From positions 1 through 64,000 of the forward strand of contig CALXOF010000013.1 of NCBI GenBank assembly GCA_944389945.1: a stretch of DNA of 64,000 nt. The letters run 5' to 3'. The translations under genes were made by a program, and so were the position numbers. Of the stretch, positions 443-63,632 are shown one piece after another (within the stretch, counting starts at the first letter, position 1; each line of letters begins with the position of its first letter). This DNA is from an uncultured Kiritimatiellota bacterium. GTDB taxonomy: Bacteria; Verrucomicrobiota; Kiritimatiellia; RFP12; DVOR01. The notes beneath the pieces are model-generated. The model made no database searches. It worked only from the letters and a program-made list of their open reading frames with translations, and was not told the DNA's origin.

Positions 443-1852
443 TCACTTGGAGGCTCCAAAAGAAGCTTCAGCCGAGGCTGCTTCTTCAGGCGAGGGGCCA
501 AAGACAATCTCGGTGGGACTATCCTCAAAGGCCTCCGGATGAATCTCGCACGCTTGGTTGAGAATATAGGCGTGCTGTAACTTGCCACAGTCACCAAACG
601 CGCGGTAGCCGATTTCCGTCACGCCGGGAGGGATTCTCACCGAGGTCAAGCCGGAGCAACACTCAAACGCCTTGTCCCCAAGTTCCGTCAAGTTGTCCGG
701 GAGCCTCCCCGAGGCCAATCTGGCACACCCGCTAAACGCACACTCTCCGATTATCGTCACACCTTCCGGGATTCTCACCGAGGTCAGCTTTGCGCAACCT
801 TCAAACGCGCCATTGTAAATTGCCGTCACCCCGTCCGGGATCGCCACCGATGTCAGGTTGACACATCCGCTAAACACACCACCCGTGATTTCCGTCACGC
901 CGGCAGGGATATTCACCGAGGTCAGACGCGCGCAACCCTCAAACACACCGGGGCCGATACGCTTCACGCTGTCTGGAATCGTCACAGCGGTCAATCCGGC
1001 GCAACCGGCAAACGCGAACGCGCCAATCGTCGCCACGCCCTCCGGGATTGTATAGGCGACAGTCGAGATGGGAACATGAAGCAATTCACCTCCATCTGCG
1101 GACATCAATACACCTTCCGGAGTGGACCTGTAAGCAGGATTTCCCTCTTCGACAAACACCGCGCCACATCCTGTAAACACGCCCAAACCGATGCTCTTCA
1201 CGCTGGCCGGAAGGGTCACCGCGCTCAGACTGCTACACCCCTCAAACACACAGCTCCCGAGCGCCGTCACACGGTTTGGGAGTCTTGCCGAGACCAGACT
1301 CCTGCACCCGCTAAATGCGTTGGATGCGATTATCGTCACACTATCCGGGATGGTTATCGAAGTCAACCTGCTGCATCCCTCAAAAGCACGTTCCCCAATT
1401 ATCGTCATGCCCTCTGGGATTGTCACCGCGGTCAGACCGCTGCACCCATAAAACGCACCGTTCCAAATCGCAGTCACACTCGCCGGGAGTGTCACCGAGG
1501 TCAAGCTCGTGCACCCAATGAAAACGCCGGCCTCGACTTCCGTCACACCTTCTGGGATTGCCACTGATTTTAGGCTGGAGCAATCCGTAAACGCACTGCA
1601 CCCGATTCTCCTCACACTGTCCGGAATCGTTACCGAGGTCAGGCCGACACACCCCAAAAACGCATGGGCCCCGATTGCCGTCACGCGGCGGCCATTGATG
1701 GCCGAAGGGAGCGTGAGATGCTCGGACGCGTTGGAAACGCCGCTGATTGTGACTCCGTCTGAAGCACTGAAATACGCCCACTGAATCCCGGTGACGGGGT
1801 CGACCCACGTCTCGGGCTCGGTATTGGGTTGGTCATAAAACCACTGTTGCAT
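443..1852 (-). CDS. BspA-type leucine-rich repeat protein
   Basis: This 469-residue protein is built almost entirely of 23-residue BspA/Treponema-type LRRs (LRR_5), with the pattern A-F-x-G-C-x-x-L-x-x-V-x-I-P-x-x-V-x-x-I. About fourteen units fall in two blocks, separated near residues 225-265 by a non-repeat insertion. In characterised bacteria such proteins are surface adhesins or ligand-binding proteins. Here there is no signal peptide and no sorting tail, so the location is unclear. The ATG at 1852 is preceded by GGAG at a good distance. The N-terminal 40 residues (WVDPVTGIQWAYF) form a short cap common in this family. The C-terminus ends in a low-complexity Ala/Ser stretch. Function beyond the fold is inference. 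Confidence 0.9.
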   Translation of the reverse strand: MQQWFYDQPNTEPETWVDPVTGIQWAYFSASDGVTISGVSNASEHLTLPSAINGRRVTAIGAHAFLGCVGLTSVTIPDSVRRIGCSAFTDCSSLKSVAIPEGVTEVEAGVFIGCTSLTSVTLPASVTAIWNGAFYGCSGLTAVTIPEGMTIIGERAFEGCSRLTSITIPDSVTIIASNAFSGCRSLVSARLPNRVTALGSCVFEGCSSLSAVTLPASVKSIGLGVFTGCGAVFVEEGNPAYRSTPEGVLMSADGGELLHVPISTVAYTIPEGVATIGAFAFAGCAGLTAVTIPDSVKRIGPGVFEGCARLTSVNIPAGVTEITGGVFSGCVNLTSVAIPDGVTAIYNGAFEGCAKLTSVRIPEGVTIIGECAFSGCARLASGRLPDNLTELGDKAFECCSGLTSVRIPPGVTEIGYRAFGDCGKLQHAYILNQACEIHPEAFEDSPTEIVFGPSPEEAASAEASFGASK

Positions 1853-2200: not shown

Positions 2201-4453
2201 TCATGCTTTAGTCTTCCCTTCCTTGGGAAATACCTCCGCCACGAGTTCTTCCATGGCCTTGAAGACCACTTTTGGAGAAATGGACTTGAGAGGTTTCTTT
2301 TCTGAAGTGTGCCCTTCATCAACTATTTGGATATACGACTCTTCCCCACTTTGGATGAGCGCAAACGTATGCTTGCCTCCTCCAATATTCCCAGAGGTCG
2401 TAATCCAAGTGCCACTCGCGTCAGTAGGCCATTCCCACTCCCAATTCTGATGCTCATCATAAAACTCATACCACCATTTTACCAAGGAGTCTATGCGATA
2501 AGCGGTCCCATTGTTAAGATTAGCTCGCGTATACAAATAAACATCTGTACACCAAGCGCATTTACTCCAAGTTCGAATCTTGTAACTTTTTCTATCTCTT
2601 CCTGCTACTTTTAACTTATCATTGTCCCATCCAGGATAACATCTATCCAATCGTTCAAGCCACTCCATGCGACGTGGCTCATCGCCTTTCCCCATCTTGC
2701 AATGTTCGACTTGCCATTCGTATCGTTGTTCTGTCGGATACAGCAATGTGTTAAGCGTAGCATTGCCAGCCGCATCCATACAAATTAACTCACATGGAAT
2801 GGACATTTCCAATTCGTGCGACTTTGGCTCATATGCCGCAGCAATCCTCGGAACGAGATCTTCCCTAAGCCACTTCCGACGGAGCTCTTCATTCTCAAAC
2901 TTCCCTGGCTTTTCTGGATTTCCTGCGAAATACATCAAAACGTCTTCAAACTTACCCAATTTATCGTCTGGATTGTCTTCTCTTCCTTCGTTACACTGGC
3001 ACAACAGGAAATTAATTCGCCCCTTTTGCCATGACAAGGCCTCAGCCTTCTCAATGGGATTGCGCCAGTTTTCGTCCTTGAGAAGTTTCAGTTTTTCTGC
3101 CTCTTCCTTGCACTGTTCTTTCGCCACCGAGGTATTCTCCAAGGCAGTTACAAGATCCTCTGCCTCGGCCAGTGAATGAATCAACTTTATCACGCTATCC
3201 AGATTTGCTGACGAGATGGCGGTGTTTTCAAGGATATTATGGATGATTCGCCACCAATCTCTCGGCTCAATCTTCGATTTTAATTTGGCAGGCTCAGATT
3301 TTGCCAAGATATACGCATACGCCAAGCATTCTCCTTCGTACGAAAGCGGGTCGCTTCCGGTCGATTCATTTGCTAAGGCCGTAAGCAACACATTCTCACT
3401 TGGGTCTTGACGTTCCGACTCCCATATCGGATACCACCAAGTATTAATGTCCTCTGGATACCACGATTTTCTCGCTTTTCCATCCTCTTGTTCAGAAGGC
3501 ACACAAACAAGCCACGAAAAACCTTCTTTCAGAAATTGAATAGGCTTTCCTTTCATGAGTCGCTCCCAATCTTCTGCGGGAAGCGCCACGTCTGAATCCT
3601 TTATGGTCTCTCGGACATTATCAATGACAGAGGCTTTTTCTGTCGCCGCCTCATCATCGCGCTCGATATAATGGAGTAAGAGCAAGGTCAACGTCAATCG
3701 GAACATCGCCCGATCGCATCCCTTATTGCCCACAATCTCCCACACCTTGTTGAGCCACGTCCCATCGACAGCACTTTTCCAGGTACTATCATCAGGAGCC
3801 CTTTCATCAATGGCGGCCTTGAGGTTCTCAAAAGGCGTAAGTAGCTTGCCGCGGTCGTTCAATTTGTGATATTCGTCGTCAGCGTCTTCTTTTGTCTCAT
3901 AAACCCAAAAGGTGATGTTCTTGCTCCAATCGTCAGAGGGGAAATCTTCTGGCTTCCTCTCCTCATGGATAGCATCCAATGTCCGGAGCATCCCCATGAT
4001 GGTGGGGTCCCGTTCCCAAGCGGCCAAGAACCACGCTTGATCACGAATCAACTCCGATGGCGGTTTGCCTTGCTTACGCCAATCCGAGCGCTGAGTCACA
4101 ATTTTCTCGCAGAACTCCGCAGACGTCCGTCTTACCTTATATGAGAATTGTTTGAGTCCGTCGACATTCTTCAAGTGGTAAAGATGGAAGAGGAAGAGTG
4201 TCGTCAACCGCTGTTGCCCATCCACAGGAATCCACTGTTGCTCTGCGCCGTTCTCCTGGGCCGCCATGTACACCAAATCAAGGTTCAACGCATTACCCCA
4301 GGCTGCTTCGGTTAAGCGACGAACAAACGCCTTGCGAATATTCTCCGCCTGGACATTGTCACGCCCCTGTGCATAGTCTCGCTGAATCACGGGGACAACA
4401 ATCTTACGCTCCTTAAGCGCGTCTAAAAAAGTCATCAACTTCAACGTAGTCAT
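2201..4453 (-). CDS. DUF262 protein, second gene of a GmrSD-like pair
   Basis: The 750-residue protein has an N-terminal DUF262 (GmrS-type ParB-like NTPase) domain. It shows the IQRDYAQGR segment (residues 23-31) and the signature DGQQRLTTL (78-86). No HNH/DUF1524 motif is visible in the long C-terminal part, which I do not recognise. In GmrSD/SspE systems DUF262 binds and hydrolyses NTP to control a DUF1524 nuclease that cuts modified phage DNA. The partner with DUF1524 is the gene directly upstream (4465-6111), so this is probably an accessory sensor or regulator in the same defence operon. ATG 4453 follows GAGGAGA with a 7-nt spacer. A GTG at 4468 that overlaps the upstream stop is possible but has no such site. 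Base composition is AT-richer than the flanks, which suggests transfer. Confidence 0.82.
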   Translation of the reverse strand: MTTLKLMTFLDALKERKIVVPVIQRDYAQGRDNVQAENIRKAFVRRLTEAAWGNALNLDLVYMAAQENGAEQQWIPVDGQQRLTTLFLFHLYHLKNVDGLKQFSYKVRRTSAEFCEKIVTQRSDWRKQGKPPSELIRDQAWFLAAWERDPTIMGMLRTLDAIHEERKPEDFPSDDWSKNITFWVYETKEDADDEYHKLNDRGKLLTPFENLKAAIDERAPDDSTWKSAVDGTWLNKVWEIVGNKGCDRAMFRLTLTLLLLHYIERDDEAATEKASVIDNVRETIKDSDVALPAEDWERLMKGKPIQFLKEGFSWLVCVPSEQEDGKARKSWYPEDINTWWYPIWESERQDPSENVLLTALANESTGSDPLSYEGECLAYAYILAKSEPAKLKSKIEPRDWWRIIHNILENTAISSANLDSVIKLIHSLAEAEDLVTALENTSVAKEQCKEEAEKLKLLKDENWRNPIEKAEALSWQKGRINFLLCQCNEGREDNPDDKLGKFEDVLMYFAGNPEKPGKFENEELRRKWLREDLVPRIAAAYEPKSHELEMSIPCELICMDAAGNATLNTLLYPTEQRYEWQVEHCKMGKGDEPRRMEWLERLDRCYPGWDNDKLKVAGRDRKSYKIRTWSKCAWCTDVYLYTRANLNNGTAYRIDSLVKWWYEFYDEHQNWEWEWPTDASGTWITTSGNIGGGKHTFALIQSGEESYIQIVDEGHTSEKKPLKSISPKVVFKAMEELVAEVFPKEGKTKA

Positions 4454-4464
4454 GGCAGATCTCC

Positions 4465-6111
4465 TCACTTGTTGTTCTTCAGATACGCATCAATCATTGT
4501 GGCGACAAAGCTTCGATAAAGCTCACCATCACCTTCATCTGTCTCATCCCATTCATCACCTTGTTCTCGCCCCAAAAACCTGGCGAAAGCAAGACGTGTG
4601 CCCAATGGAATAAATCCTTTAATTCTGTCGCGCGGTGCTTCCTCCTTGCCATTGGAAACACCCAGCCACGTCCTTATCCATCCCCGCTTTTTATGAAAAT
4701 CACCTTCCTTAAACTCGGAGTTGATGTCCTTAGGCAAAAGCGCCAAGTTGCCGAAGTCGTTCAGTCCTCCTGCATCTCGAGGATGAATATGCTCAATGCT
4801 CCACGTTGTTTTCTTAAAAACGCCAAAGGGAAAACGCGTCCGCTCCAAACCGTCATGGTCGGTCAAGGCAAGGTTGAAGAGCAAAAGCGCGGATTGGATT
4901 TCATCATTGTTCGATTCATATTTCCAGTCTTCCAAGCAAGAACCCACCGTTGCATCCCCAAAGAGCGCTTCTCGACAAAGGCTCCCGACTTTTGCCTCAA
5001 ACTCACTCCTCCTTATCGCCGTCTTTTCATTCGTAGCCAATGCCAACAATTCCAACAACGTTTCGAACCGAGCCTTCTCATTTGTGGCGCGATTGACCAT
5101 CAAAAAGCCAATAAGGTGATAAAGCCGGAGATTGTCATACCACTCTTCCATCTTACTGAAAATCTTTTTGACATACTCCCAAGCGTCTTCCACTTTGCCA
5201 TTGTCCCCACCCTGTCGGTCCCACAACTCAAAGAGAAAGTCAATGTGGGCTGCTTGGAAGCGAAAAGCGGCTGGGGCTGGATTGACAAAACACCAGAAAT
5301 CGTCATCCTGCAAGCGTTGCTCAATGCGATCCCAATCGTCTGCCGCAAGGACCTGGTCATTGCCCTTCTTCTTGGAAAGAAGTTCGGCCTTGATGAGTTC
5401 GGCGTTGGAGAGGGGGATTTTGCCGGAGTTTAGGCGCGCGAAGATTTCATGCTCGTCCCCCTCCGGTTCATACCACAGGAAGAAGGTTTTTGCCTTTATC
5501 CAAGAGGCAAAGTCCTCTTGATTCACGGCATCCGGTTTTTCGTCTGTTTTCTTTTTCTTTTCTTCCAGCTTTTCTTTCGCCTTCCACATATACCAATAGT
5601 CTGGATTGGTGGCATTCTCTTCGTTCTTCTTTACAATATTCGCGAGAAACTCCTCACTCTTAGGGCGGGTCTCATATTCCAGCGAGAACCCGGGCTCCTG
5701 GCCTAAGACTTTGAGGAGGATGTAGAGCGTGGTCAGGCGTTGCTGGCCATCGATGACACGCCATTGGTGGCCTTTCTTCATGACGACCAACGGTTGAAGA
5801 CAATAGGCTTTCTTTTTATCCATTGCCTCCCAGAGGTCGTCAAAGAGTTGCTCCACTTCCCTTTCACCCCAGCGGTAGCCGCGCTGGTAGGAAGGAATGA
5901 AGAAGGACTTCTTCACAAATCGCCGGGGCCAAGCATGACCTCGTTGCCGCCGAGAGGGAACGAAGGTCGTTGTTTGTCGAATCACGGAGTTCTGCGAATT
6001 GTGAGAACCTCGCGAATAATACGGAATAGAAAAGGACTTGGCGTCCGCAGACAGTTCGCCAATGGTTTTCTTGTAAACCGAGCGGTTGTTTTCGCCAGAA
6101 GTGTTGCTCAT
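4465..6111 (-). CDS. GmrSD-like DUF262-DUF1524 type IV restriction protein
   Basis: The 548-residue protein carries both halves of a GmrSD enzyme. An N-terminal DUF262 has IPSYQRGYRW near residues 72-81 and DGQQRLTTL near 120. A C-terminal DUF1524 His-Me finger nuclease has SIEHIHPRD at about 438-446, followed by the conserved Asn of DFGNLALLP. Known family members (GmrSD, BrxU, SspE) are NTP-dependent endonucleases acting on modified phage DNA. ATG 6111 is chosen because AAAGGA lies 6 nt upstream; an in-frame start at 6168 would fall on the -35 element. The gene is followed after 11 nt by a second DUF262 protein. Two different DUF262 subunits in one operon is less usual than a single fused GmrSD. 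Composition is AT-richer than the neighbours. Confidence 0.88.
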   Translation of the reverse strand: MSNTSGENNRSVYKKTIGELSADAKSFSIPYYSRGSHNSQNSVIRQTTTFVPSRRQRGHAWPRRFVKKSFFIPSYQRGYRWGEREVEQLFDDLWEAMDKKKAYCLQPLVVMKKGHQWRVIDGQQRLTTLYILLKVLGQEPGFSLEYETRPKSEEFLANIVKKNEENATNPDYWYMWKAKEKLEEKKKKTDEKPDAVNQEDFASWIKAKTFFLWYEPEGDEHEIFARLNSGKIPLSNAELIKAELLSKKKGNDQVLAADDWDRIEQRLQDDDFWCFVNPAPAAFRFQAAHIDFLFELWDRQGGDNGKVEDAWEYVKKIFSKMEEWYDNLRLYHLIGFLMVNRATNEKARFETLLELLALATNEKTAIRRSEFEAKVGSLCREALFGDATVGSCLEDWKYESNNDEIQSALLLFNLALTDHDGLERTRFPFGVFKKTTWSIEHIHPRDAGGLNDFGNLALLPKDINSEFKEGDFHKKRGWIRTWLGVSNGKEEAPRDRIKGFIPLGTRLAFARFLGREQGDEWDETDEGDGELYRSFVATMIDAYLKNNK

Positions 6112-6139
6112 GACAAATCCTTTCACAGAAGTTACGGGT

Positions 6140-6168
6140 ATGTTAGCATACAGGGGCAGTGGGGTCAA
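6140..6168 (-). promoter_or_regulatory. Promoter of the DUF262 operon
   Basis: On the minus strand TTGACC (6163-6168) and TAACAT (6140-6145) are separated by exactly 17 nt. The leader to ATG 6111 is about 20-25 nt and contains AAAGGA. Confidence 0.55.
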
Positions 6169-6208: not shown

Positions 6209-6295
6209 GAAACCCTTAAGGGTACGAGGTGAGACCCTATAGTGGTCGAGGGTCAACCACTATAGTGGTCGGGGGCGGACCACTATAGGGTCTCA
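6209..6295. repeat. Family A palindrome array, copy 1
   Basis: Four palindromic modules in order: ACCCTTAAGGGT, ACCCTATAGTGGT, ACCACTATAGTGGT, ACCACTATAGGGT. Each is two half-sites head to head. Related arrays lie at 39515, 46815 and 63523. The array sits between the DUF262 operon promoter and the end of the DnaE-like gene. Confidence 0.85.
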
Positions 6296-6305
6296 GAAGA
6301 GGGGG

Positions 6306-7595
6306 TCAGGGAGTGGATTTGTAGGTGTTGTGGAGGCGGAGGTAGAGGAGACGATAGGCGAGGAGGGAGCGAGCGAGGGCGTGGGATTTGGGGTAGAGGG
6401 TGGAGGCAAAGAAGAGGAGGTCGTCCCAGAGGCGTCTGACGAGGGCTTTGGGGGCGGTGGGGATGGAATCGGGGGTGGAGGGTTCGTCGGTGAAACCGGG
6501 GAGGAGGGTGCGGAGCGCGGGCAGCGCGGGGCCGAAGGAGGGATTGGCGAGGGCGCCTTTGATGAAGCGGGGGCGGACGCGGCGGAGAGTGGTGTACTTG
6601 TCTTTAAGAAGGGCGCGGAGGGTCACCCAAGCGGTAGCGATATCGAATCCGGCGAGGTCGCGAAGGAGGGTGAGCACTTGTTCCTGCCAGAGGAGGATGC
6701 CGTGGGTCTCGGCGAGGGCGGCGAGCCAGGCGGGACGTGAACCGGCCTCCATCCCCCTGTTGAATGATTCGCCAGCGGCTGGAAGATTGTCGCACTGGGC
6801 ATCGACGGAGGAATGGGGGACGCACTCCGCACGAGCAGAAGGCGTCTTGGCGGGGGTGTTGCGGCGGCGGAGGAAGTCGTTATAGAAGAGGCAGGGGCCG
6901 GGGAGGGTGAGGATGTAGACGAGGGCGAGGTCGTTGAGGGTGCGGGGGCGTATGCCGCGGAGGGCGGCGAGCATGGGGAAAGATTGGAAGGCGGGGATAC
7001 CATCGGTGTTGCCGGTGGCGAAGGCCTTGAAGGTGAGGGGGTCGTCGAGGGGGATGGCGGCGAGGTCAATCGGGTGGCCGACTTTGCGGAAGACGTCGAG
7101 GCGGCGGCGGAGTTCATCGAGAGCGTCTTGGACGGCGCTGTGCTCGGGGGCGTTTTCGTCGTCGATGCCGAGGAGTTGGGCGGTGTCGAGGTCGGTGGCG
7201 TAAGGGATGCGGGCCCATTGGCGAACGTCGATGGCGACCTTGGCGTCGGTCTCGAGGGGGAAGGTGGGGGCGGCGCGGAAGAAGAAGGGCTCGGGGCGGA
7301 GTCCGTGGGCAAGGGGGTCGAGGTCGGTGAGGCCGAGTGCGTAGGCGATGGCGCAGCCGGTGGCGGCACCGCGGCAGGGGGCTATGACGGCCTTGAGCTC
7401 ACGGGCGGAGGCGAAGCGGTTGCACGCAAGGAGAAAGGCTTGGTGCCAGGCCTCGGGTTTGGCGCGGAGCCAGGCGAGCTCCTCGTCGAGTCGGGTGCGG
7501 ACGGCCTCGGGCAAGGGGGAGGGCCAGCGGCGGGCGGCGCCGGCGCGGATGAGGGACTCGAGTTCTTGCAGAGGGGAAGAGGCGGGGGTTGTCAT
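6306..7595 (-). CDS. Truncated DnaE-like protein, probably catalytically dead
   Basis: At 429 residues this is far shorter than DNA polymerase III alpha (about 1100-1200). Several DnaE palm/fingers segments are still in order: RGAATGCAIAYALGLTDLDPL (residues 75-95, DnaE GRGSxAGSLVAYALxITDLDPL), PIDLAAIPLDDPLTF (175-189), ATGNTDGIPAFQS (193-205), LPGP (231-234), HGILLWQEQVL (298-308) and KSHALARSLLAYRLLYLRLH near the end. The PHP domain, beta-binding and OB/tau parts are absent. The catalytic PDxDxDF motif is not present where it belongs (about residues 110-125), and the segment that carries the third Asp in E. coli is missing. So it is probably not a polymerase. ATG 7595 has GGAGAG upstream, one nt after the stop of its partner gene. 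A decayed gene is an alternative, but the frame is open and the conserved blocks are intact. Confidence 0.75.
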   Translation of the reverse strand: MTTPASSPLQELESLIRAGAARRWPSPLPEAVRTRLDEELAWLRAKPEAWHQAFLLACNRFASARELKAVIAPCRGAATGCAIAYALGLTDLDPLAHGLRPEPFFFRAAPTFPLETDAKVAIDVRQWARIPYATDLDTAQLLGIDDENAPEHSAVQDALDELRRRLDVFRKVGHPIDLAAIPLDDPLTFKAFATGNTDGIPAFQSFPMLAALRGIRPRTLNDLALVYILTLPGPCLFYNDFLRRRNTPAKTPSARAECVPHSSVDAQCDNLPAAGESFNRGMEAGSRPAWLAALAETHGILLWQEQVLTLLRDLAGFDIATAWVTLRALLKDKYTTLRRVRPRFIKGALANPSFGPALPALRTLLPGFTDEPSTPDSIPTAPKALVRRLWDDLLFFASTLYPKSHALARSLLAYRLLYLRLHNTYKSTP

Positions 7596-7596
7596 G

Positions 7597-7947
7597 TCAC
7601 TCTCCTTTTTTCACAGACGGTGGGGTGCGGCGGCCCTTCAGGCGGCCTTTCATGAGGCGCCAAGCGGATTTGGGCCAGAGGCGGTGGAAGGTCTCTTCGC
7701 GGGGCCATTGACGGGTGGCGTCCATCAGGGCGAAAGATTGGTGCGGGGGCGGCAGACGGCGGCCGTTCCAGGCCCAGCAAAGGTGACCGAAGATGTGCTC
7801 AAGGTCGACGGCGAGGGCGCCTTCGGTGAAGGGCTTCTCGCGTTCGCCGCGGATCGTTTCGTCAACTGCCTCAGTGAGCTCACGCAGGGACCAGAGCGCC
7901 TCGTGGAGGTCGGCCGCGACGGTGGGCCAATCGATGTCTCGTTTCAT
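7597..7947 (-). CDS. Hypothetical partner of the DnaE-like protein
   Basis: I do not recognise this 116-residue protein. The N-terminal half is acidic and helical, the C-terminal 30 residues are strongly basic (RLMKGRLKGRRTPPSVKKG), and Trp is frequent. ATG 7947 is preceded by AGAGGA. The stop is one base before the start of the DnaE-like gene, so the two are co-transcribed and probably translationally coupled. Function is unknown; the context suggests a protein acting with the DnaE-like product. Confidence 0.7.
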   Translation of the reverse strand: MKRDIDWPTVAADLHEALWSLRELTEAVDETIRGEREKPFTEGALAVDLEHIFGHLCWAWNGRRLPPPHQSFALMDATRQWPREETFHRLWPKSAWRLMKGRLKGRRTPPSVKKGE

Positions 7948-8123
7948 GGGGTTCCTCTCTATTCAGACCAATCAGACAAGAGGGAAAATAACACCACATC
8001 CGACGCTTTGGCAAGCGCTTTTCGCGAAAGGGTCGGTTTTTGCTCAAAAAGGGGTGTTAGCACCCTCGTAGCCGCTTAATAGACTGCCCCACCCTGCCGG
8101 CGCAAAACCTCGCGCATGGGGAT

Positions 8124-39514: not shown

Positions 39515-39600
39515 GAGACCCTATAGTGGTCCGAGGTCAACCACTATAGTGGTCGGAGGTGAGACCCTATAGTGGTCGGGGTCGAAACCCTTAAGGGTCC
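39515..39600. repeat. Family A palindrome array, copy 2
   Basis: Modules in order: ACCCTATAGTGGT, ACCACTATAGTGGT, ACCCTATAGTGGT, ACCCTTAAGGGT; flanked on both sides by GGGGCCTTT-type sequence. Confidence 0.85.
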
Positions 39601-46814: not shown

Positions 46815-46900
46815 GAGACCCTATAGTGGTCCGAGGTCAACCACTATAGTGGTCGAGGGTGAGACCCTATAGTGGTCCGACCCGAAACCCTTAGGGGTCC
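46815..46900. repeat. Family A palindrome array, copy 3
   Basis: Modules ACCCTATAGTGGT, ACCACTATAGTGGT, ACCCTATAGTGGT and ACCCTTAGGGGT, the same order as copy 2 with one change in the last module. Confidence 0.85.
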
Positions 46901-63522: not shown

Positions 63523-63632
63523 GGACCCCTAAGGGTTTCGACCCGGACCACTATAGGGTCTCGCCCCCGACCACTATAGTGGTTGACCTCGGACCACTAT
63601 AGGGTCTCACCGTGGACCCTTAAGGGTTTCTC
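63523..63632. repeat. Family A palindrome array, copy 4
   Basis: Reverse orientation, five modules: ACCCCTAAGGGT, ACCACTATAGGGT, ACCACTATAGTGGT, ACCACTATAGGGT, ACCCTTAAGGGT. The longest array. Confidence 0.85.

Follow-up and report, generated by a model that had tools for sequence, protein, structure and literature searches.

DNA polymerases of the B, X and Y families are known to have inactivated paralogues; for the bacterial replicative C family, none was found described in the accessible parts of the literature. Inactivated paralogues of archaeal B-family polymerases are on record (PMC2527604), and the accessible part of a 2026 survey of bacterial polymerases includes inactive ImuB and other Y-family proteins as well as PolX proteins without a polymerase site (PMC12926913). 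The same part of the survey states that all C-family polymerases have a PHP domain; it makes no mention of an inactivated PHP-less member, truncated sequences having been discarded before the trees were built (PMC12926913). Described systems of a different kind are the GmrSD-type restriction systems. A study of GmrSD neighbourhoods lists type I restriction and helicase domains, and its main text nowhere uses the word polymerase (PMC4619093). TgvAB of Vibrio cholerae is a two-protein type IV restriction system of the GmrSD type in which both proteins are needed, and no polymerase-like neighbour is described in the accessible part of that report (PMC11411939).

The locus analysed here lies in a 64,000-nucleotide stretch of DNA (the window) from a gut bacterium of the Kiritimatiellota. 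It encodes a short protein, the mini-DnaE, which is homologous to DnaE over the N-terminal half of the palm and the fingers, and it is almost certainly a paralogue of this lineage's replicative DnaE that has been inactivated and reduced to the palm-fingers body. Like the inactivated paralogues of the other polymerase families, which are presumed to be structural or regulatory, it keeps the fold, probably without catalysis. Next to it lies a gene pair recognised from its domains as having the plan of TgvAB (DUF262 with a GmrSD_C-like end, and DUF262 only); unlike TgvAB as described in that part of the report, this pair has a polymerase-like neighbour. If it is true that the mini-DnaE works with the GmrSD genes, the replication machinery and type IV restriction would be directly connected, and the repeated origin of such proteins makes it testable whether a host's copy of its replicase senses or misleads invaders.

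Architecture and active-site residues of the mini-DnaE

Features of the window and related short polymerase genes in other replicons
Feature	Location	Strand	Description
BspA-type LRR_5 gene	443..1852	-	beyond the GmrSD pair
Second GmrSD_N (DUF262) gene, TgvA-like	2201..4453	-	7.4e-18; adjoins the first
GmrSD/DUF262 gene, TgvB-like	4465..6111	-	likely ATG 6111, ORF open to 6168
Promoter-like site TTGACC-N17-TAACAT	6140..6168	-	before the GmrSD genes
Inverted repeat	6230..6295	.	repeat units 6237-6288; between mini-DnaE and GmrSD genes
Mini-DnaE	6306..7595	-	429 aa, ATG start, frame intact; palm N-terminal half (~residues 10-135) joined to fingers (~166-423)
116-aa gene	7597..7947	-	small unnamed family, conserved H..HL.WAWN.R ... 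F...WP
Promoter-like site TTGCCA-N18-TATTTT	7985..8014	-	upstream of the 116-aa gene; consensus match only
Mini-DnaE	G005:C6		399 aa, 84% identity, intact
Mini-DnaE	G005:C58		386 aa, 35% identity, intact
Mini-DnaE	G026:C345		~406 aa, 28% identity, intact; different family of the same order
Mini-DnaE	G008		broken: split by contig end, one-base insertion in C run
Mini-DnaE, pCY186	L294 7746-9188		NC_014390.1
Mini-PolC, pCY186	L294 10598-11596		NC_014390.1

Pfam searches of the mini-DnaE detected DNA_pol3_finger (PF17657, 3.3e-24) and positions 1-94 of the 260 in the DNA_pol3_alpha profile (PF07733, 1.2e-11), and no other family; no PHP domain was found by Pfam, the protein beginning at the start of the palm. 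The NCBIfam cut-offs for DnaE, 434 bits (TIGR00594) and 1002 bits (NF004226), are missed by a best score of 107 bits. Solved Pol III alpha chains align to the protein in four ordered blocks (E 7e-28), in agreement with the first-pass annotation, which had read DnaE blocks in their proper order. When the protein is aligned with the full DnaE of its relatives, it starts right after PHP and retains the N-terminal block of the palm; the thumb and the second half of the palm are passed over, and the match continues in the fingers to the end of their main body. Counterparts of the finger tip, the clamp motif and the C-terminal tail are absent from this alignment too, and the total length is about one third of that of full DnaE.

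The mini-DnaE corresponds to residues ~281-430 of E. coli alpha joined to ~575-780. According to the published limits of Pol III alpha (PHP 1-280, palm-fingers 281-432 and 510-810, thumb 433-509, finger tip 811-928, tail 929-1160 with the clamp motif at 920-924; PMC4703070), it is therefore near the palm-fingers body minus the thumb and the second palm half. The palm-fingers of Pol III alpha have been described as a rigid body (PMC4703070). An AlphaFold model (pLDDT 82, pTM 0.83), whose input alignment included full DnaE cores, fits residues 281-780 of E. coli alpha, the only part matched, with Z 33.7 and 2.5 A over 348 residues. Structure prediction had been proposed as a check at first reading; because of the DnaE cores in the alignment, the likeness of the model to DnaE is not independent evidence. 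The 30 extra amino acids of the window protein were considered as a genomic repeat, which was rejected, as they occur in single copy.

The short proteins were aligned with 112 full DnaE cores, in which neither the serine of the GS motif (1.0 after rounding) nor any of the three catalytic aspartates varies. In four mini-DnaEs the position of the GS serine is occupied by A, A, R and A, the first and third catalytic Asp are lost in all four, and the second reads E, E, E and D, an assignment that depends on the alignment. In the numbering of the DnaE-core alignment, S76, D115 and D268 are the losses that the short proteins have in common. The window protein has lost the PDxDxDF aspartates, and the segment bearing the third catalytic Asp is absent; these gaps and the missing PHP domain had been noted at first reading, and Pfam (for PHP) and the 112-core alignment (for the aspartates) bear them out. 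Several finger residues invariant in DnaE are also lost from the Kiritimatiellae proteins (R348, F318-Q319, N469, Y476), and E40, P72, G75, Y84, T89, D92-P93, E101, L379, T382, G384, E390-Q391 and F429 are retained. Judged by these residue losses, the mini-DnaE is probably catalytically dead, as had been supposed.

Relatives and selection

Homologues were sought in 162 genomes from the order and, by profile, in 346 from the class. Among the matches listed for the 346 class genomes there are at least three further intact mini-DnaEs and at least one broken copy. The intact ones have 386-406 residues and are 28-84% identical to the window protein, and the architecture and the lost residues are common to all. 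The first-pass annotation had reasoned that full-length DnaE orthologues would indicate a local truncation; the closest homologues are equally short, and since they occur in other genomes the mini-DnaE is not a local truncation. In the tree the four short proteins form one clade with very long branches, nearest to the DnaE of their own order, a placement that is tentative because the tree is a quick one and the branches are long. The closest full-length relatives of the window protein are likewise DnaE proteins of the same bacterial order. The profile scan of genome contigs gave no new mini-DnaE, and beyond the known G005 copy only full-length DnaE plus a few matches in split or contig-edge frames. 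Viral contigs contained nothing related when searched with the window protein alone; the profile gave DnaE-like matches there, whose spans and low identity suggest ordinary phage DnaE. The assembly that carries the window (G000, 92.3% complete) contains no full dnaE. Replacement of DnaE by the short protein was considered and rejected: the stretch that follows dnaE in G005 has no match in the G000 assembly either, so that the G000 dnaE most likely falls in an assembly gap.

The plasmid search led to a separate case on pCY186 of Butyrivibrio proteoclasticus; otherwise the matches listed from plasmid and phage records were annotated DnaE, error-prone polymerases or unannotated partial matches. 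WP_013283142 (480 aa, annotated as hypothetical) matches PF07733 (2.2e-30) and PF17657 (4.7e-34), has no PHP and a deletion in the middle, and its GS serine and catalytic residues are lost. The next gene but one encodes WP_013283140 (332 aa, also annotated as hypothetical), which matches the palm and fingers of PolC and likewise lacks the middle. These proteins resemble the window protein in being PHP-less, apparently catalytically dead palm-fingers cores without a middle part, and differ from it in origin and in their neighbours, among which are dnaX, DnaA-like and PolC genes. Common ancestry with the Kiritimatiellae proteins is unsupported, each being closest to the DnaE of its own lineage: the best relatives of WP_013283142 are clostridial DnaE, the Kiritimatiellae short proteins rank last, and such cores have therefore arisen at least twice. 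The pCY186 cluster also holds an FtsH-like AAA gene and a full PolC, and the plasmid carries a partial, partly inactivated replisome set.

The mini-DnaE is under weak purifying selection, at a pace like that of its GmrSD neighbours. Its dN/dS is 0.56 (0.39-0.83) between G000 and G005, further values are 0.62 (0.44-0.90) and 0.47 (0.35-0.63), and all intervals lie below 1. Between G005 and G008 the synonymous distance is about equal for the short gene (dS 0.205, dN 0.126) and full dnaE (dS 0.194, dN 0.025), for which dN/dS is 0.13. The short proteins thus change at about 4-5 times the rate of full DnaE, still below neutrality. The GmrSD genes give 0.44-0.46 and the genes adjoining but outside the island 0.11-0.15; for the 116-aa gene the value is 0.47, and its interval is wide. 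Relaxed selection, named at first reading as a sign against the proposal, was thus found in part: constraint is weaker than on DnaE, yet it is not absent.

Neighbouring genes and possible roles

The intact frame of the mini-DnaE, its 429 residues, the 116 residues of the upstream product and the gap of exactly one base (7596) between the two genes were all confirmed. No Pfam, NCBIfam, PHROG or PADLOC family was found for the 116-aa protein, PADLOC holds no model for the mini-DnaE either, and a fold predicted for the 116-aa protein from its sequence alone was of unusable quality (pLDDT 49.6). Ten homologues have in common E16, H51, H55-L56, N61, R63 and F87...W91-P92. The search proposed at first reading, for short DnaE-like proteins beside homologues of the 116-aa protein, gave such a pair in G005:C6; beside the mini-DnaEs of G005:C58 and G026 the partner gene is absent, and beside the G008 copy it is mostly deleted. 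Conversely, the family occurs without any mini-DnaE in G007, within an ordinary operon, and in other genomes, so that the two-gene unit is not obligate. The obligate co-occurrence expected of a toxin-antitoxin pair is likewise lacking in both directions.

The more constant neighbour lies on the other side, and had not been linked to the mini-DnaE when a two-gene system was proposed. Of the four intact loci, three (G000, G005:C6 and G005:C58) have a GmrSD/DUF262 gene directly after the mini-DnaE, and in G026 the contig ends there. The order in G000 and G005:C6 is the 116-aa gene, the mini-DnaE, a GmrSD gene with a GmrSD_C-like end and a GmrSD_N-only gene. In G005:C58 a different DUF262 gene, with DUF7834, follows 54 bases after the mini-DnaE, and the DUF262 genes beside the short proteins belong to two dissimilar subfamilies. 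Downstream of the broken G008 copy are an SNF2 helicase, a start that reads as DUF1156-like, a DUF499/Swt1-HEPN gene and, at ~10 kb, a GmrSD gene. LRR_5 genes are directly upstream of the module in G005:C6, G005:C58 and G008. In the window, the TgvB-like gene matches GmrSD_N at 5.5e-35 and GmrSD_C at 20.1 bits (cut-off 23), its G005 orthologue reaching 31.4 bits, and a DGQQR motif can be read in both GmrSD proteins. A setting in defence genes, in line with the defence role that was among those suggested by the first-pass annotation, is apparent in three loci, where putative restriction-type genes of the GmrSD/DUF262 kind adjoin.

The GmrSD genes have a promoter-like site of their own and are therefore probably transcribed separately from the mini-DnaE. 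Their G+C is 0.48-0.49 against 0.68 for the mini-DnaE; the latter and the 116-aa gene follow the chromosome in G+C and dS, and the GmrSD genes are mosaic. With this promoter-like site, the intervening hairpin and the different G+C, the case for co-function is one of position: the physical association is good, shared transcription in the window is unlikely, and a shared function is suggested by location only.

Several explanations of these observations were weighed. We tentatively favour the view that the mini-DnaE is a non-catalytic accessory kept as an optional part of the GmrSD/DUF262 restriction loci of Kiritimatiellae, which is plausible at a little below even chance. Against it count the TgvAB-like pair of the same kind without a mini-DnaE in G013, the only about two independent origins of the neighbourhood sampled, and the pCY186 protein, whose neighbours are replication genes with no GmrSD. 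Somewhat unlikely, and the most serious contender, is a decaying passenger, a dnaE duplicate whose ends and catalytic centre were lost long ago and which lingers under little constraint in a variable defence island. Such decay would accord with a dN/dS of 0.47-0.62, 4-5 times that of dnaE, with the very long branches, with the patchy presence (at least five loci in 346 genomes) and with the G008 copy, where a one-base insertion in a C run accompanies the loss of most of the 116-aa neighbour; that indel may however be an error, since it lies in a homopolymer of a fragmented assembly. Intervals that exclude 1 speak against a passenger, as do one architecture with the same lost residues throughout, the separate appearance of the same design in Butyrivibrio, and four intact frames down to 28% identity, since an unselected 1.2-kb frame is not expected to survive. 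That the protein is still a polymerase or a nucleotide-binding enzyme with an altered active site is hardly credible: the IDTD of the G026 protein at the place of DnaE's DxD and the one Asp retained in Butyrivibrio would favour it, and the loss of the D115 and D268 equivalents and the GS serine in five of five proteins and of many invariant finger residues in Kiritimatiellae speaks against it.

The two-gene system proposed at first reading, taken as an obligate pairing of the mini-DnaE with the 116-aa protein that has nothing to do with GmrSD, is already weakened and improbable. Its own promoter-like site, the one-base gap and a chromosome-like G+C and dS, while the GmrSD genes are mosaic with a different G+C, would suit it, but each partner occurs without the other and six of the 11 partner-family loci are within 8 kb of a GmrSD gene. 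Scarcely more probable is a dominant-negative inhibitor, by which the mini-DnaE would compete with DnaE for template or tau on infection and stall replication abortively, restrained by the 116-aa protein. The one-base coupling and the retained fingers, where Pol III has tau and template contacts (PMC4703070), are in its favour; the thumb and tail, which carry the strong DNA and tau contacts, are missing, and the 116-aa gene, absent beside two intact mini-DnaEs and alone elsewhere, is therefore not an obligate antitoxin. In principle the fingers could contact tau (PMC4703070). Nothing in the sequence supports the clamp-related role once suggested, since both the clamp-binding motif and the tail belong to the missing C-terminal part. 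For the accessory reading, one mechanism is imitation of the replicative polymerase: replisome partners, or phage proteins directed against the polymerase, would contact the mini-DnaE, which would thereby act as a decoy, as a sensor or as a tether, recruiting the GmrSD nuclease to foreign DNA under replication or licensing it there. Mimicry comes to mind because catalysis, clamp binding and the thumb grip are gone, while fold, fingers and contact surfaces remain; as a specific mechanism it is speculative and rather unlikely. About as unlikely, or slightly less so, is a recurrent undescribed class in which inactivated mini-DnaE and mini-PolC proteins would serve as replisome mimics in host-invader conflicts, arising independently in each lineage (in GmrSD loci of Kiritimatiellae and on a replication-gene-rich Butyrivibrio megaplasmid).

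Repeats and mosaic structure around the locus

The hairpin downstream of the mini-DnaE was considered as a special regulator and rejected, being one of many dispersed copies; others in the window are at 39521-39577, 46821-46877 and 63546-63602. The pattern GACCACTATAG[GT]GT occurs 261 times in G000 (reversed-pattern control 0), in clusters of 2-4 units that repeat every 23 bp; the clusters are spread fairly evenly, at about one per 10-20 kb. There are 109 copies in G005, 3 in G004 and none in 14 other genomes of the genus.

The mosaic of the GmrSD pair consists of near-identical and divergent blocks between G000 and G005 (window 2201-6168, L043 9109-13178). In the second GmrSD protein ~240 aa are 98-100% identical and the ends ~20-60%; in the first the start is conserved and the end divergent. 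The TgvB-like gene also carries an in-frame insertion of ~43 aa in the start of DUF262 (~5916-6045, minus strand), which is absent from G005 and flanked by a partial repeat of SF.IP.Y.RG. A small repeat protein with Cys-Cys, zinc-ribbon-like motifs is encoded near the G026 mini-DnaE (L045 4504-4860), and another adjoins a GmrSD gene of G053 (L035 628-999); the two are 75% identical over 96 aa.
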